Shown here one piece after another: positions 7,360 through 44,341 of a DNA stretch of 52,896 nt (position 1 is its first letter; each line of letters opens with the position of its first letter). Source of the DNA: Desulfurococcaceae archaeon. Its GTDB lineage: Archaea; Thermoproteota; Thermoprotei_A; Sulfolobales; NBVN01. Below the pieces are notes generated by a model. That model worked only from the letters and a program-made list of their open reading frames with translations. It made no database searches and was not told the DNA's origin. A program made the translations under genes and the position numbers. The stretch spans positions 1 to 52,896 of the forward strand of contig JAJHQR010000003.1 in the NCBI GenBank assembly GCA_020833255.1. The letters run 5' to 3'.

Positions 7360-7821
7360 CTACTCGTAGACTACGTTAACTATATGCTTAACCTTGTCAA
7401 CCCCTTCACACATTATTAAACGTATTAACTCCTTAGTAGTGTCAGTCAACTCTAGCTTTAGAGCGTCTTCGAATTTGAAGAAACCTATGCCGAGAGACTC
7501 CTCGTTCGCTACGGGCTCTCCCTCAGCGTCGGTGATTAGGTAGTCAAGTATTACGTAATGATATTTAACGCTATAATCTTTTCTAAGCCTTATGTACTCG
7601 GTAATAGCTAGTAACGACGCCTTACTAGCCTTAAGCGACGTCTCCTCCTCTAATTCCCTGAATAAAGCTGTGAGCACCGGCTCCCCAGCCTCTATATGCC
7701 CGCCAGGTATGGACCATAAGTTAGGTGATGGCGGGTACTTCCTCTTAATGAGGAGTATCCTACCATCTCTTAAGACTACCGCCCCTACCGCTACCCTAGG
7801 CCACTCAACCACTCCGAACAC
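7360..7821 (-). CDS. Nudix hydrolase
   Basis: Small (153 residues) Nudix-fold pyrophosphohydrolase. The Nudix box spans about residues 40-63 as GGHIEAGE, then RELEEET; the Gly near the end of the consensus box is Ser here, which other active members also tolerate. RVAVGAVVLRDGRILLIKRKYPP and LWSIPGG are typical of ADP-ribose or nucleotide-sugar type members. Substrate not determinable. The start ATG at 7821 is close to a possible GTG 6 nt downstream. It diverges from the threonine-synthase-like gene, with about 75 bp holding both promoters. Confidence 0.85.
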   Translation of the reverse strand: MFGVVEWPRVAVGAVVLRDGRILLIKRKYPPSPNLWSIPGGHIEAGEPVLTALFRELEEETSLKASKASLLAITEYIRLRKDYSVKYHYVILDYLITDAEGEPVANEESLGIGFFKFEDALKLELTDTTKELIRLIMCEGVDKVKHIVNVVYE

Positions 7822-7896
7822 CTACTCAATAAGTTTTACTTGCTAGATTAATGTTTTATCTTGTTATTAAGATTACGTTTTAGGAGTAGTGAGGCG

Positions 7897-9213
7897 ATGC
7901 TTAAATTACGTTGCGTTAGGTGTGGTCACGAAGTGGGTGGGGTTGAGTATGTCAGTAGCTGTCCTCAGTGCGGGGGTCTCTTAATAACCCGGGCTTCAGG
8001 GTGTCTGAGGAAGGGTAAGGGTTCGGGGGTCTGGGTTTGGGGTAACGGCTTATTCACTTCGTTCATGACCCCGAGAGTTACGTTAGGGGAGGGCAACACC
8101 CCGCTCATAAAATCCGTTAAGATAGGTAGGAGCACCGGCTTAACGCTTTATTTCAAGGACGAAACTAAAAACCCTTCAGGCTCCTTCATAGACAGAGGCT
8201 CGGCAACACTAGCTACCGCGTTGAAGTACTTTAAGATCAGGTCTGTGGTGGTGCCCTCTACCGGAGACTTAAGTATTTCGGTCTCAACATACCTGAGACG
8301 TGCCGGGATCTCTAGCAAGGCTTACGTACCATCCAGCGTTACTTTAAGCAAGGCTTACAAAACCCTCTTAGTGAGCGATAGGGTAAAGTTCGTTGATAGC
8401 TATGAGGAAGCGTTGGTTAAGGCTTTAAAGAGTACGCAGTTTTATGACGCGGCTATACTACCCACCAACCCATTCTTGATTGACGGTTACAGGACGGTAG
8501 CTTTCGAGCTGGTTTACTCGCTAGGCAGGGAAAGACCTTTAATGGTCGTAGTACCGATAGGGGACGGTGTCCTAGCTCTAAGCATTCATTACGTGCTTGA
8601 AGATCTTGGAATACATCACAAGATACTCGGTGTTAGAGCGTGTAAGGAATCCCCCCTACTAAGAGATATCTACGTCGCTAAGCCGATGCTTCAAGAATAT
8701 CTGAAAGAACTCGAAGATTCGGGGTTCATAGAAGTCATTAACGTATGTGATGATGAAGCACTTGAGGCAAGTGAATTCATGGTTAAGAAGGAAGGCTTCT
8801 TGGTAGGGCCTGTAGGGGCTTCGTGTGTGGCGGCGCTCAAGAAATTAGTTGGTGAGGGCAGGAAAGATTTCGTTACGGTAGCTTTGATGTCGGGCGATCC
8901 GTTGCAAGACCCCTACGTCATTAAAGCTCTTCTCGAGAGGACCGCGGGACGTGAGGAACAGATAGTGACTCTAGGCTTTACTAAGATGAAGATCTTGGAA
9001 ATCCTCGCTTACGGTAACCCGGCACACCCCTACGTACTCTGGAAGGAACTCAAGCAGAAACACGGTCTTAACTTGAATAGGAGGAGTGTCTACAAACACG
9101 TGGAGGAATTAATTAGCTTAGGCTTCTTGAAGGTAGTCGGTCATGAAAGGGTTGGCGGGAGGATTAGGAAGATAGTGACTATAACCGAGCAGGGTTTGAA
9201 ACACCTCACGTGA
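7897..9213 (+). CDS. Threonine-synthase-like protein without the PLP lysine, fused to a winged-helix domain
   Basis: Probable regulator or sensor, not an enzyme. Residues 5-27 form a zinc ribbon (CVRC, CPQC) as in archaeal threonine synthases; residues 50-360 follow the fold-type II PLP enzyme. In NPSGSFIDRG the PLP-binding Lys of the canonical SFKDR is Ile98 (ATA at 8188-8190), so no Schiff base can form. The canonical S-G-N loop reads PSTGDLSIS and the C-terminal cofactor contact reads MSGDPLQD. Residues about 365-438 (ILEILAYGN, then RRSVYKHVEELISLGFL, then KIVTITEQG) form a winged-helix DNA-binding domain. An intact ThrC is encoded at 43295-44341. I chose ATG 7897 because GTGAGG precedes it; an upstream TTG at 7861 is less likely. 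Only about 80 bp separates it from a co-directional ECF transporter operon, a possible target. Confidence 0.8.
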   Translation: MLKLRCVRCGHEVGGVEYVSSCPQCGGLLITRASGCLRKGKGSGVWVWGNGLFTSFMTPRVTLGEGNTPLIKSVKIGRSTGLTLYFKDETKNPSGSFIDRGSATLATALKYFKIRSVVVPSTGDLSISVSTYLRRAGISSKAYVPSSVTLSKAYKTLLVSDRVKFVDSYEEALVKALKSTQFYDAAILPTNPFLIDGYRTVAFELVYSLGRERPLMVVVPIGDGVLALSIHYVLEDLGIHHKILGVRACKESPLLRDIYVAKPMLQEYLKELEDSGFIEVINVCDDEALEASEFMVKKEGFLVGPVGASCVAALKKLVGEGRKDFVTVALMSGDPLQDPYVIKALLERTAGREEQIVTLGFTKMKILEILAYGNPAHPYVLWKELKQKHGLNLNRRSVYKHVEELISLGFLKVVGHERVGGRIRKIVTITEQGLKHLT

Positions 9214-9294
9214 TATTGCGGCGTCGATAGTGAACTTGATATTGTATTGATCGCCTAAAAACGCTCTTTCCCTTATCTTCACGAGGTGTGCGTG

Positions 9295-10035
9295 ATGAGC
9301 GTGGTCAGGGTCTCCCTATATACCGCGTTGGTTTTGATAGCTACTATAGTGCTCCAGGTTTATACGCCAGCAACCCGCGGATATTTTAACCTTGGTGAGG
9401 TAGCTATATATACTGTCGCAGCCCTGAGCTCGCCGCTCACGGCAGGCATCGCCGGGGGAGTTGGTTCGGCGCTAGCAGATCTCCTGACCGGTTACGGGAT
9501 TTTCGCGCCCGGCACGTTAGTTATTAAGTTTACTGAGGGCTTCGTAGCGTCCTTACTGATCTCCTCTTTTAGGAAGAAGTTAGGGGCTTTCTCCAAGCTA
9601 CGTATAGCGTCGGTAGTGATAGGGGTGCTTCTAGGGATTTTGATAGCTGCGTTAGGGGTGGCCCTCTTCACCGGGGAAATCGAGCTTTATTCAGTGCCTC
9701 TCAGCGTTATGGGCGTTGAGCTCACGGTGCTTTCCGCGAAGTTCTCGCTAGCTACCTGGTTCTGGATTTTAATAGGTTTGGTGATCGTTATTTCGGTGAC
9801 GTACATCGTGGTTAGGGCTAGGGGCGAGAGTTTAAGTTTCGTGATTCCGGTGCTATTCAGCGGGTTAATAATGGTTACGGGGTATTTCCTCTACGAGTAC
9901 TTCGTTTCTAACCCCCTCCAAGGGATACCGCCTGAGGAAGCCTTCGTCGAGGTCCCGGTCAACCTAGGTCAAGCTTTAGTAGGTCTAACGCTTTCGTCAC
10001 CCGTCATCACGTTCGTTAATAGAGCTAGAGGGTAG
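9295..10035 (+). CDS. ECF transporter substrate-binding (S) component
   Basis: Integral membrane substrate-capture subunit of an energy-coupling-factor vitamin/micronutrient importer. Hydrophobic segments suggest about six spans: residues 3-22, 35-60, 75-93, 100-125, 150-175 and 180-200. The GGVGSALADLLTGYGIFAPG stretch followed by TLVIKFTEGFVASL is the usual loop of the broad ECF S-component family. Substrate cannot be told; vitamin B6, thiamine precursors and riboflavin are typical for this family. ATG 9295 is chosen because GAGGTG sits 6 nt upstream. Its stop overlaps the start of the ATPase gene by one base, giving an S-A-T operon. Confidence 0.8.
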   Translation: MSVVRVSLYTALVLIATIVLQVYTPATRGYFNLGEVAIYTVAALSSPLTAGIAGGVGSALADLLTGYGIFAPGTLVIKFTEGFVASLLISSFRKKLGAFSKLRIASVVIGVLLGILIAALGVALFTGEIELYSVPLSVMGVELTVLSAKFSLATWFWILIGLVIVISVTYIVVRARGESLSFVIPVLFSGLIMVTGYFLYEYFVSNPLQGIPPEEAFVEVPVNLGQALVGLTLSSPVITFVNRARG

Positions 10036-11303
10036 TGCATGATTTGATGGAAGTAAGGGATCTCAACGTATGGCTTAGTAACTACCACGTACTGAAGGAT
10101 GTTTCCTTCAACGTCGGCGAGCACGGTGTAGTCTTGTTAGTAGGGCCTTCAGGCTCCGGAAAATCAACTCTGTTGAAGACTTTAAGTGGTGTGATACCTT
10201 CGGTTGTTAAGGGGGTTGTCAGAGGTTTTTCTAGCCCGTCTCTGGAGACTCTTAAGAGTAAGGCCATGTACGTACATCAAGAACCTTGGTTCTTCATCTC
10301 AACACCTTATGTTTGGTCGGAGATCGTTGGCTACACCTCGATAAAGTCTTTAAGTAGTCTTAGGGAGGTTCTCGAGGAATTCAGGCTCGGCCACCACGTC
10401 AACAGGACTACGTACACTTTAAGTGCTGGCGAGATTCAGAGGCTTGCGTTCGTGATAGCGGTGAATTCAGGGAAGGAGATACTCTTACTAGATGAGCCGA
10501 CATCTTACCTCGATAAACGTAATTCCGAGACTCTAGTGAGGTTTGTCGTCAAGCTCAGCAAAGACTACGGTAAGACGTTCATCATAGTGGATCACGACTT
10601 AACGCTGTGGGGTGATTACGTGAGTGAAATACTGTACCTGAGTGAGGGGAGGCTTACTAAGACCTCGAAAAACCCTTTCGAGGAAGTCGTCAGAAATATG
10701 TCCAGCAAGTTAAGTCCCGTAAACTCGAGAAGTAGTGAATGCCTGAAAATACGTGTTGATAGTTTTAGGTTTCCTGACTCGAAGGAGCCTCTGCTAACTA
10801 ACATAAGCTTTGACGTGTGTAGGGGGGAGGTCGTGGTGGTCAAGGGTTCTTCCGGTTCCGGCAAGACCACCCTACTCAAGTTGATAGCTAGTGGGTGTCT
10901 CAGGGGTGGTGGGGTGGTTGACGTCAGCGGGGGTCGATGCAGGGCTGTCTTCGTGCCTGATAACCCTCTACTCTACTTGAGTTCCCCCACCCCCGCCGAG
11001 GAAGTCGGCTTGGAAGGCTTGAAGTACCTTAAGTATCTAGGTATCGCCAGTAAAGCTGAGACCCCGATCATGAGGCTTAGTAGTGGTGAGAGGAGGAGGC
11101 TAGCCATAGCCTCGGCTCTTTCAAGAGGTTATGAGTACGTCTTCGTGGACGAGCCTACAGCCGGTCTAGACCCGTTAAACAAGCTCCTTGTTATTGAAGC
11201 GATTATTAAGGCTGCTGAAATGGGCGTGGGTTTCGTGATAGCTTCTCACGACCCATTCGTAGAGATGATAGCTAATAAGGTGGTGTGTATTGAGCGTTCT
11301 TAA
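10035..11303 (+). CDS. ecfA: ECF transporter ATPase, two fused nucleotide-binding domains
   Basis: Energises the ECF importer. Domain 1 has Walker A VGPSGSGKST near residue 36, signature LSAGEIQRLAF near 130 and Walker B ILLLDEPTSYLD near 152. Domain 2 has KGSSGSGKTTLL near 275, LSSGERRRLA near 350 and VFVDEPTAGLDP near 374. Both domains keep all ABC motifs, so this is an EcfA1-EcfA2 fusion of 422 residues. GTG 10035 overlaps the S-subunit stop; an in-frame ATG lies 12 nt downstream. The EcfT gene overlaps its 3' end by 14 nt. Confidence 0.9.
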   Translation: MHDLMEVRDLNVWLSNYHVLKDVSFNVGEHGVVLLVGPSGSGKSTLLKTLSGVIPSVVKGVVRGFSSPSLETLKSKAMYVHQEPWFFISTPYVWSEIVGYTSIKSLSSLREVLEEFRLGHHVNRTTYTLSAGEIQRLAFVIAVNSGKEILLLDEPTSYLDKRNSETLVRFVVKLSKDYGKTFIIVDHDLTLWGDYVSEILYLSEGRLTKTSKNPFEEVVRNMSSKLSPVNSRSSECLKIRVDSFRFPDSKEPLLTNISFDVCRGEVVVVKGSSGSGKTTLLKLIASGCLRGGGVVDVSGGRCRAVFVPDNPLLYLSSPTPAEEVGLEGLKYLKYLGIASKAETPIMRLSSGERRRLAIASALSRGYEYVFVDEPTAGLDPLNKLLVIEAIIKAAEMGVGFVIASHDPFVEMIANKVVCIERS

Positions 11304-11982
11304 AAGAATTGCTGAGCTCTTTAGGTTGTTTGTTTCGTTGTTGTTTAGATCTATCTTCATTTACGGGGATATTGAGGGGAGGCATGTCCCGTTCTTAATC
11401 AACTTAGCTTTGTTGGTAACCCAGGTCTTGGTGGCTAGAGGGAGTGTTGAGCGTGTGTTGGTTGTTCTCGCATCTGTTTTACTCACGTACCTCGCTCGAG
11501 GGTCTGGTAAGGTGGTCGTTTACTCTAGCGTTTTAGCGTTAATACCTAGTACGTGGTATTTCATAGTATCAACTCCTTTCACGCTGGATCTCTTCGCGTC
11601 GGCTTTAATAGCTTTAAGAGTTTTCACCGTGAGCCTCTCTTTCATCTGCTTCCTCTACTTTTTCAACCCTGTAGAGATCTCGTACTTACTGAAACTACTG
11701 CGTCTGAAGAACGCGTCTTTATATCCTACCCTCACGTGGAGGGTTGTACCGCACATAATGAGGGATATGGAGACGGCGTTGCTCGTCGGCGAGATGAAGG
11801 GGGTTGAGGCTTGGAAGAGTTTAGCTGTTACTGTGTTGACTACTGAGGAGTACGTGTCACTATATGAGGAGGGCTTGTTCAGTAAGCCTGGGTACGAGCC
11901 TTCTTACTACTACAGCGTTAAACACACGCTCACTACCTTGATTATCCTGGCTTTTTTAATGGTTGCGTGCTTCTTCACGTGA
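11290..11982 (+). CDS. ecfT: ECF transporter transmembrane (T) component
   Basis: Membrane scaffold linking the S subunit to the ATPases. About 230 residues with four to five membrane spans in the first 135 residues and one at the C-terminus (TLTTLIILAFLMVACFF). The region after residue 150 (WRVVPHIMRDMETALLVGEM) is the cytosolic coupling-helix area; EcfT proteins usually carry Ala-Arg-Gly motifs here, and the match is weak. The TTG start lies inside the end of the ATPase gene, showing translational coupling. Identification rests on operon position and topology more than on motifs. Confidence 0.75.
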   Translation: MSVLKRIAELFRLFVSLLFRSIFIYGDIEGRHVPFLINLALLVTQVLVARGSVERVLVVLASVLLTYLARGSGKVVVYSSVLALIPSTWYFIVSTPFTLDLFASALIALRVFTVSLSFICFLYFFNPVEISYLLKLLRLKNASLYPTLTWRVVPHIMRDMETALLVGEMKGVEAWKSLAVTVLTTEEYVSLYEEGLFSKPGYEPSYYYSVKHTLTTLIILAFLMVACFFT

Positions 11983-12031
11983 TATTCCTTATAATACCTA
12001 GCTCTATTCATAGTTTGGTTGGTGAGTGGGG

Positions 12032-12412
12032 ATGAGTCTGGCGCCTGGCATGAGGTATGTGAGGAAGTACGTCACAACACAACAGCACTCCGCGAGACAC
12101 GTGGGTTCGGGGAGTGTGGAGGTTCTTTCAACTCCTTCCATGATTCTCTTCATGGAGGAGACGTGCCGTGTTTTCTCTGACGAGCACTTGCCTGAGGGCC
12201 AGACTACCGTGGGGGTTCACGTGGATGTGTACCACGTGCGTCCAGCGCCTATAGGGAGTGAAGTGGAGATACGTTCAACCCTCTTGCAGTTTGACGGCAA
12301 AAAGCTAGTGTTCTGGGTTGAGGCTTGGTGCTCAGGTACTTTAATAGGTTACGGACTGCATGAGAGGGCCGTAGTGGATAGGGAGAAGTTCTTATCGAGG
12401 GTTAAGGGTTAG
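12032..12412 (+). CDS. Hotdog-fold acyl-CoA thioesterase (FlK-like)
   Basis: Small single-hotdog protein, 126 residues from ATG 12032, which has GGTGAG 5 nt upstream. Visible elements: HVGSGSVEVLSTPSMILFME followed by ETCRVF (the hot-dog helix with catalytic Glu), TTVGVHVDVYHVRPAPIGSE in the central strands, and GYGLHERAVVDREKF at the end. This pattern matches the fluoroacetyl-CoA thioesterase-like family that hydrolyses short acyl-CoA or removes toxic thioesters. Substrate not determinable. It stands between ecfT and tyrS with its own apparent ribosome binding site. Confidence 0.78.
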   Translation: MSLAPGMRYVRKYVTTQQHSARHVGSGSVEVLSTPSMILFMEETCRVFSDEHLPEGQTTVGVHVDVYHVRPAPIGSEVEIRSTLLQFDGKKLVFWVEAWCSGTLIGYGLHERAVVDREKFLSRVKG

Positions 12413-42332: not shown

Positions 42333-43298
42333 TTACTCAGTAACCAACACTTCAATCTTGTTCGTTATCTCTTCCTTTATTTTCTTAGTGAATTCCTTAA
42401 GTGAGCCACCGTCTTTCAAGAGTTTCTCGAATTCTTTGAATAGGTTGGTTTGCGGCATGCTTACCTCCTTGATTACTTTGTTGAGTTTCTCGCTTATTAC
42501 TAAATAAAGTTCTAGAGATCTTCTTAAGGCCCTCTTCTCTATGTCTAGTCCGTTCATTCTCGTGAAGGCTGCGTGTTCTTTAATCGTTTTTGCTAGCGGC
42601 TCCACGCTAGCTATGCTCAGAGCGTTCGTTAAGATGACTTTCGGAGTCCAACCCCTCTTCACAACGGAGTCTAACGCGAAGAGTACTTGGTTGTAGGTTA
42701 GGTTAGCTCCCGGTAGGTCGGCTTTATTTACTACGTACACGTCCCCGATCTCCATTATGCCGGCTTTAATAGCTTGTATCTCATCGCCTGACTCAGGCAT
42801 TAAGACGACGACTATAGTGTCAGCTACGCTCATTATCCTCGTGCTGAACTGCCCTGCCCCAGGAGTTTCTAGGATTATGTAATCAAATCCTAGACGCTCA
42901 AGCAACTCGATGGTGAGTAAAGTCTTCAGAGGTAATGATTCCTCCTCACGCGTCGTCATAGACCTGATGTACACTTCCTTAGGAACGTCCTTCATCCTGA
43001 CCCTATCACCCATTACGGCTCCCCCAGTAATAGGGGATCTAGGATCAACCGCTATGACGGCGATCGAGTTGCCCTCACGAGCTAAGAGGGTGGCTACAGC
43101 GTTTATTAATGTAGACTTGCCCACGCCGGCCGACCCAGTGAACCCTACCACGTGAGCGGTTTTAGGCTGGTACGGGATTTGAGTAATCACTGAAATCGAG
43201 TTTAGCGGGTTTTCCTCAATTAAGGTTATTAGCTTACTTATTGATGCCTTATCTCTCTTAAGAGCTCCGTTAATGAGTCTCGCGACGTCGATACTCAT
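42333..43298 (-). CDS. meaB: Methylmalonyl-CoA mutase-associated GTPase MeaB (ArgK)
   Basis: G3E-family GTPase chaperone that protects B12-dependent methylmalonyl-CoA mutase. Walker A GFTGSAGVGKSTLINA near residue 55; AVDPRSPITGGAVMGDRVRM near 85 is the characteristic MeaB stretch; ILETPGAGQFS with switch II and VNKADLPGANL (NKxD) follow. 321 residues. It overlaps thrC by 4 nt. With the BCCP/carboxyltransferase pair it supports a propionyl- or succinyl-CoA route. Confidence 0.92.
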   Translation of the reverse strand: MSIDVARLINGALKRDKASISKLITLIEENPLNSISVITQIPYQPKTAHVVGFTGSAGVGKSTLINAVATLLAREGNSIAVIAVDPRSPITGGAVMGDRVRMKDVPKEVYIRSMTTREEESLPLKTLLTIELLERLGFDYIILETPGAGQFSTRIMSVADTIVVVLMPESGDEIQAIKAGIMEIGDVYVVNKADLPGANLTYNQVLFALDSVVKRGWTPKVILTNALSIASVEPLAKTIKEHAAFTRMNGLDIEKRALRRSLELYLVISEKLNKVIKEVSMPQTNLFKEFEKLLKDGGSLKEFTKKIKEEITNKIEVLVTE

Positions 43299-44341
43299 AT
43301 AGTCATTCCTCCGGAAACGTGTTTGATGCCGTTACCCGTTAATATGACCACGACCTTCCCGGAAATACTCTTCTCCTTCATTAACTCTCTCGCTACCGCA
43401 TAGCCGTAAGCGCTCGTGGGCTCGGCTACAACCCCCTCCCTCCACAACTCCCTCAGGTACGGCACCGCTAACTCGTCATCTATTACCGCGTATAAGCCCT
43501 CTAATTCTTTAAGGATTTTAGCAACGTGCTGTAGCCTCGGGGCGTCAGTTAACCTTATCCCGTCAGGGAGCTGAGCTCTAGACCTGCAAACACTCACGCA
43601 AGGTTTGTAATACTTGGTGAGTGACTCATAACCGCATGCTTGAACAGCCACCAGCTTCGGAACACGCTTAACTACCCCGGCCTCAACTAACTCCATATAA
43701 CCCTTCCACAAACCTATGAGGAGGGTGCCGCTAGCTAGCGGACTAACGACGTAGTCTACCTCGCCTAACCCCCTAACTAGTTCTAGCGCTAGATCTTTCA
43801 TACCTTCTAGGAAGTAGGGGTTGATTCTATGCCCTACGTAACACCCCTCCGGATCACTTACGGCAAGCCTAGCAGCCTCGTCCCTCGTAGGAGCCTCCAC
43901 CACCTCAGCACCCAGAGCTTTAAGCATGTTTTTCTTGCCTGCCGGCGCGTCGTAGGGTACGTAAATCCTGGCTTTTATGCCGGCACGCCCGGCGTAAGCA
44001 GAGTATGAAATCCCCGCATTACCTGATGAATCCTCGATAACCAGCTTACAACCCCTGCTCAAAGCTTCTGAAACCGCCGTGACAGCGCCTCTGTCTTTGA
44101 ACGAACCTGATGGGTTAAGGTAATCTAACTTCAAGTAAATACCTTCCCTAGACTTTATCACGGGGGTCCTACCCTCGCCGAGGGTTACGAGCCTTAACTC
44201 CCTAGGAATTAACGTGCCGTCCTCCCTCAAAGACGTACGAAAATCACTATCTACTAAGAGCGGCTCACCGCAGTGCTCGCACACATATAACCCGGGCCTG
44301 TACTCAGTCTGAAAACCACACCTCCAACACACTAACCTCAC
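43295..44341 (-). CDS. thrC: Threonine synthase
   Basis: PLP enzyme making threonine from phosphohomoserine. Zinc ribbon CWRC...CEHC at the N-terminus; the PLP lysine is intact in NPSGSFKDRGAVTA near residue 80; DSSGNAGISYSAYAGRAG binds the cofactor ring; VSPLASGTLLIG is the phosphate cup, VILTGNGIKH the C-terminal contact. 348 residues. This is the functional counterpart of the lysine-less protein at 7897. It is co-transcribed with meaB (4-nt overlap). Confidence 0.9.
   Translation of the reverse strand: MRLVCWRCGFQTEYRPGLYVCEHCGEPLLVDSDFRTSLREDGTLIPRELRLVTLGEGRTPVIKSREGIYLKLDYLNPSGSFKDRGAVTAVSEALSRGCKLVIEDSSGNAGISYSAYAGRAGIKARIYVPYDAPAGKKNMLKALGAEVVEAPTRDEAARLAVSDPEGCYVGHRINPYFLEGMKDLALELVRGLGEVDYVVSPLASGTLLIGLWKGYMELVEAGVVKRVPKLVAVQACGYESLTKYYKPCVSVCRSRAQLPDGIRLTDAPRLQHVAKILKELEGLYAVIDDELAVPYLRELWREGVVAEPTSAYGYAVARELMKEKSISGKVVVILTGNGIKHVSGGMTI

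Follow-up and report, generated by a model that had tools for sequence, protein, structure and literature searches.

The locus described here raises the question of what a threonine-synthase-like protein that has lost its Schiff-base lysine and gained a winged helix might do directly in front of the genes of an ECF importer. The locus lies in a stretch of 52,896 nucleotides from a Desulfurococcaceae archaeon (contig JAJHQR010000003.1), which is called the window below. Our reading, held as likely with a probability of about 0.77, is that the protein is a vitamin B6-sensing regulator of the B6 import encoded downstream, following a logic like that of MocR/PdxR on a fold-type II scaffold; ligand, DNA binding and sign of control are all inferences, with no binding or expression data behind them.

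The open reading frame opens at an in-frame TTG at 7861 and runs to 9213, and the protein of 438 aa is counted from the ATG at 7897, as shown in Table 1. Pfam placed a PALP domain (PF00291) at residues 61–333 (E 2e-39) and a PadR-like winged helix at residues 366–437 (E 5e-5, just short of the Pfam cut-off). The AlphaFold2 model, built from 20 window and locus sequences, reached a pLDDT of 88.7 and combines a threonine-synthase fold with a winged helix at 361–437; threonine synthases ranked first in a Foldseek search, and the last 77 residues of the protein fold as a winged helix. In the family alignment, Ile98 stands in the context NPSGSFIDRG, as against FKDRG in ThrC. The Cys pairs of the zinc ribbon are retained, and the cofactor loops are changed from STGN to STGD and from PVGNAGN to PIGDGVL. 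In clade A, which includes the window protein, Asp replaces the Asn contacting PLP O3', and the phosphate loop is rewritten. The fold as such is well preserved, with invariant residues surrounding the old pocket. An intact ThrC with the motif GSFKDRG is encoded on the minus strand of the same window (43295–44341), and a further Lys-bearing ThrC-like protein (L002) was found in the same genome.

The initial annotation, made from the sequence alone, was right about where the open reading frame, the codon for Ile98, the C-terminal winged helix, the intact ThrC and the importer operon lie. Its description of a kept zinc ribbon and PLP-enzyme fold with altered cofactor loops was likewise borne out by the Cys pairs, the PALP match, the model and the loop alignment. 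The gene was also said to lie about 80 bp before a co-directional S-A-T ECF operon, which held (72 bp, or 81 bp measured to the ATG at 9295) with the reservation that the T component is only putative, as the membrane protein has no Pfam match and was named from its position and co-conservation. In nearly all genomes of the same family, a NUDIX hydrolase gene and the regulator gene are divergently oriented, and a FlK-like thioesterase gene (12026–12412) comes after the importer.

Table 1. Features of the regulator and importer locus, in positions of the window.
Feature	Position	Strand	Evidence
NUDIX hydrolase, divergent neighbour conserved in the family	7360..7821	-	Pfam, neighbourhood comparison
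Threonine-synthase-like pseudoenzyme without the Schiff-base Lys, ending in a winged helix; proposed regulator responding to vitamin B6	7897..9213	+	ORF, Pfam, AlphaFold2 model, fold search, family alignment
Position of the Schiff-base Lys: ATA codon, Ile98	8188..8190	+	ORF translation, family alignment
C-terminal winged helix, residues 361–437	8977..9207	+	PadR-like Pfam match, AlphaFold2 secondary structure
Predicted operator, 12-bp direct repeat ATAGTGAACTTGATATTGTA	9227..9246	+	promoter comparison, genome scans
TATA-like element CCTAAAAAC (inferred), just 3' of the operator	9254..9262	+	conserved in same-genus S promoters
ECF S component, PF07155 (PdxU/HmpT family), likely start ATG 9295	9286..10035	+	Pfam 1.2e-23; sole PDB relative HmpT 4hzu_S
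ECF ATPase (A), two fused nucleotide-binding domains	10035..11303	+	Pfam ABC_tran, 2 stretches
Membrane protein, putative ECF T component	11290..11982	+	conserved as the operon's third gene

Searches of related genomes and their flanks revealed that the window protein is a member of a large family spanning Thermoproteota; a contig search with the single protein gave just one close relative, and more relatives were obtained through whole-genome searches. In a tree built from the enzyme domain only, the winged-helix proteins form three groups, clades A, B and C, with good support for clade A, for clade C and for B and C jointly; the data neither establish nor exclude a single origin of these proteins (AU p 0.36). 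At the lysine position, clade A, with the window protein, carries I, L or M, clade B mostly R and also Y or F, and clade C A, S or V. Lys-bearing homologues with a winged helix were looked for as a refutation of the initial annotation and none was found, either among the 63 winged-helix members of the tree or among 20 more sampled across the phylum. The winged helix, whose conservation was checked for the same purpose, is conserved throughout the family; the Lys-bearing threonine synthases (n = 9) extend only 3–23 residues past the domain and have no winged helix, and every ThrC without a winged helix that was sampled retains the Lys. The phosphate loop and the SDGN motif are still present in clade B, and the cofactor loops have diverged most strongly in clade C, which represents a second Lys-less, winged-helix, threonine-synthase-like type of 344–387 aa (L187, 3505–4641; homologues L188–L207).

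The linkage to the importer was assessed in a class survey of 144 genomes, some of them fragmented, in which 43 carry a regulator, a term used here for the window protein and any winged-helix homologue from clade A or B. Of these 43 carriers, 40 have the S component, as against 27 of the 101 non-carriers (Fisher p 3e-14, kinship uncorrected). The three carriers without it are G052, where the locus meets a contig edge and the A and T genes adjoin the regulator gene, G056, where the regulator gene directly adjoins pdxS-pdxT, and G060. S adjoins the regulator gene in 28 carriers from 14 genera and is not beside it in the other 15, and among 20 distant loci sampled from the phylum, all with Lys-less winged-helix proteins, S was adjacent in about 14. 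The neighbourhood link to ECF genes on which the initial annotation relied is thus upheld. As the loss of Lys, the winged helix and the importer linkage recur across many genera, the observation is genuine and not due to chance. The genes of the sister clade C adjoin pdxST in at least 16 genomes.

Evidence on the identity of the vitamin comes in part from the S component. PF07155 contains PdxU and PdxU2/HmpT. These count among just three characterised B6/PLP transporters (PMC9997740) and are the sole B6 ECF S components known, and the window S belongs to their family. HmpT (4hzu_S) is the only PDB relative of the window S found by sequence, and its substrate-contact residue Glu41 corresponds in the alignment to an invariant residue, Glu38, in the window S. 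Pyridoxamine was extracted from HmpT, which was formerly thought to carry hydroxymethylpyrimidine (PMC4860826). Riboflavin, which the name of PF07155 would imply, was not adopted as the substrate because the known B6 S components share this family. Substrate specificity cannot be read from the sequence of S, and transport of B6 by it remains an inference. In archaea, PLP is reportedly synthesised only via PdxST (PMC9997740). PdxS is absent from the window's own genome, which is 99% complete, and it is missing in 31 of the 43 carriers as against 35 of the 101 other genomes, with 12 carriers retaining it. Vitamin B6 is accordingly favoured as the ligand because of the family of S, the loss of PdxS, the linkage to pdxST and the operators common to importer and pdxS promoters, which are described below. 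Separately, 18 of the 144 genomes lack both PdxS and this S component, so these must have some other source or importer of B6.

The predicted operators were first spotted by eye and afterwards tested in genome scans. A 12-bp direct repeat followed by a TATA-like stretch precedes S in the window's genus and beyond, and the only exact match to ATADTGAANNNNATADTGWA in the window's own genome is at 9227–9246. The repeat is kept at S even in G005 and G039, whose S operons are located elsewhere or inverted and are not beside the regulator gene. The form of the operator varies by family, being a 12-bp repeat, a 13-bp repeat or a palindrome. Family f2 has a period of 13 bp, and in G123 two matches were obtained, at the promoters of S and pdxS and nowhere else. 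The family f9 site consists of two direct half-sites and one inverted half-site over the TATA box, and a genome-wide scan of G102 again gave just two exact matches, one at the S promoter and one at the pdxS promoter. Such sharing of one operator by importer and pdxS promoters in related genomes extends to cases in which the regulator gene is located elsewhere. Upstream of pdxS, related sites were seen in G041 and G005; sites of the clade A type are present near pdxS in G005 and, in G056, between the regulator gene and pdxS, in reverse orientation. Across the regulon scan, exact sites were limited to S, or to S and pdxS, in several genomes, while matches with one mismatch were in many genomes mostly at chance level (reversed-pattern control). 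Five f9 genomes without the regulator gave no match to the G102 motif. An f9-type site was nonetheless seen at S in G105, although no clade A or B protein was found there. Some pdxS promoters of carriers bear a different palindrome, GAACGTTC, and in some f9 genomes without the regulator, S and pdxS have a common palindrome, TTGAACGTTCA, for which clade C is, by inference, the natural candidate binder. The pdxS promoters at the clade C loci (set L187–L207) mostly carry a TTGAACGTTCAA-like palindrome. Autoregulation is not supported, since the repeat seen at S was not observed upstream of the regulator gene itself.

In the proposed mechanism, the regulator would sense the vitamin B6 status of the cell and control the downstream ECF importer of B6 (pyridoxal, pyridoxine or pyridoxamine). 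The former PLP-enzyme domain, in which no Schiff base is possible, would bind PLP or another B6 vitamer non-covalently, ligand binding would shift the seating of the winged helix on the direct-repeat operator, and the importer would be expressed when B6 is scarce. This sign of control is inferred and unsettled: the clade A site, upstream of the TATA-like element, would suit an activator, and the clade B site, overlapping that element, would suit a repressor. The usual phosphate loop is lost in clade A, so an unphosphorylated vitamer is possible there and phosphorylated PLP is perhaps not the ligand; it is kept in clade B, for which PLP is the likelier ligand. DNA binding by the window protein is likewise inferred, without binding data. 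Several points weigh against the proposed reading: the altered clade A loops, the 12 carriers that retain PdxS, the 15 in which S does not adjoin the regulator gene, the different palindrome at some pdxS promoters, the variation of the operator between families, the substrate of S that sequence does not reveal, the G105 site and the lack of binding or expression data. The initial annotation had proposed a regulator of the importer and left the ligand open between PLP, an amino acid and a vitamin; the regulator hypothesis is supported, and the ligand now points to B6, with binding of both DNA and B6 vitamers still inferred.

Three other explanations were considered. The best surviving of them, which we regard as unlikely, accepts a regulator of the importer with an amino acid or an intermediate of the threonine pathway as its ligand and a cargo other than B6. 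In its favour, the sensor has a threonine-synthase fold and no ligand specificity has been demonstrated, PF07155 takes its name from riboflavin, and hydroxymethylpyrimidine was formerly assigned to HmpT (PMC4860826). Against it, the operator is common to pdxS promoters, relatives adjoin pdxST, S is related to HmpT, and the exact sites occur only at S, or at S and pdxS, in several genomes. Much less credible is an unusual but active enzyme, a variant threonine synthase or lyase whose winged helix serves protein contacts: the closest NCBIfam model is named 'threonine synthase' and clade B retains the phosphate loop and SDGN, but no member has the Schiff-base Lys, in whose place I, L, M, V, A, S, R, Y or F is found, the same genome also encodes a Lys-bearing ThrC, and the linkage is to B6 genes and not to threonine genes. 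A ligand-free regulator, with the dead enzyme domain as a mere dimerisation scaffold or reader of another protein, could draw on the divergence of the cofactor loops, chiefly in clade C, but is hardly tenable given the well-kept fold, the invariant residues round the old pocket and the fact that MocR and similar vitamin regulators bind their ligand.

The preferred reading, a B6-sensing regulator of B6 import, can be extended to a bolder one, towards which the balance tips only slightly: phylum-wide archaeal B6-sensing factors derived from a fold-type II pseudoenzyme independently of MocR, with clades A and B controlling import and clade C PLP synthesis, and with an AIR-synthase-family protein of the regulon as a possible unknown B6 kinase. 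As a side lead, the exact clade A operator ATATTGAAGTAGATATTGAA was found 47 bp upstream of an AIR-synthase-family gene (L157 and L158, 1501–1520; G008 and G016), the product of which is HypE/ThiL/SelD-like. Homologues of it neighbour the regulator gene and S in L215, L218, L221, L225 and L228, and S in L120. This protein is a candidate for an unknown B6 kinase.

Compared with known systems, the window protein has the fold, zinc ribbon and loop framework of threonine synthase in common with that enzyme and differs from it in the missing Schiff-base Lys, the extra winged helix and the B6 gene context. Judged from its sequence, without an assay on O-phosphohomoserine, it does not count as a threonine synthase, since it lacks the catalytic Lys. 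The NCBIfam model NF004170 (PRK05638) has a cut-off of 421 bits, which the window protein, at 146, does not meet, while a clade B relative (L057, 6618–7925), which has a winged helix and carries Arg in place of the catalytic Lys, scores 695 bits. This curated 'threonine synthase' equivalog model thus apparently labels regulators as enzymes, and its naming of Lys-less winged-helix proteins is probably a misannotation. The importer shares an S component of PF07155 with the ECF-HmpT/PdxU2 and PdxU importers, but the window S is about 80 residues longer and archaeal; this type of importer is a candidate B6 importer for many archaea without PdxS. Among archaeal regulators, RbkR and ThiR are vitamin-pathway enzyme domains fused to an HTH that control vitamin genes, but they differ in their riboflavin kinase and ThiN domains, their vitamins and the placement of the HTH. 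No threonine-synthase-like or fold-type II regulator was described in the literature searched, most subscription papers being outside the search.

The closest parallel is MocR/PdxR of the GntR family, likewise a sensor derived from a PLP enzyme (a fold-type I aminotransferase domain) and joined to a winged helix, and the comparison with MocR made in the initial annotation is apt in logic. The regulons of MocR/PdxR include pdxST and pdxU, and their operators are direct repeats, or two direct boxes with one inverted (PMC5320631), similar to the direct repeats or direct and inverted half-sites found here. In contrast to MocR/PdxR, the window protein carries a C-terminal, PadR-like winged helix instead of an N-terminal GntR one, and its sensor is a fold-type II threonine synthase without Lys instead of fold type I. 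It is not a member of MocR/PdxR because both defining domains differ. Linkage and shared operators favour control of pdxST and B6 transport genes by this family, an inference without experiment. If this is true, it would provide a vitamin B6 regulon for the Archaea, from which MocR is stated to be absent (PMC5320631) and for which the literature searched contained no previous account of one, and a second, independent PLP-enzyme fold turned into a B6 sensor, a test of how pseudoenzymes become regulators.
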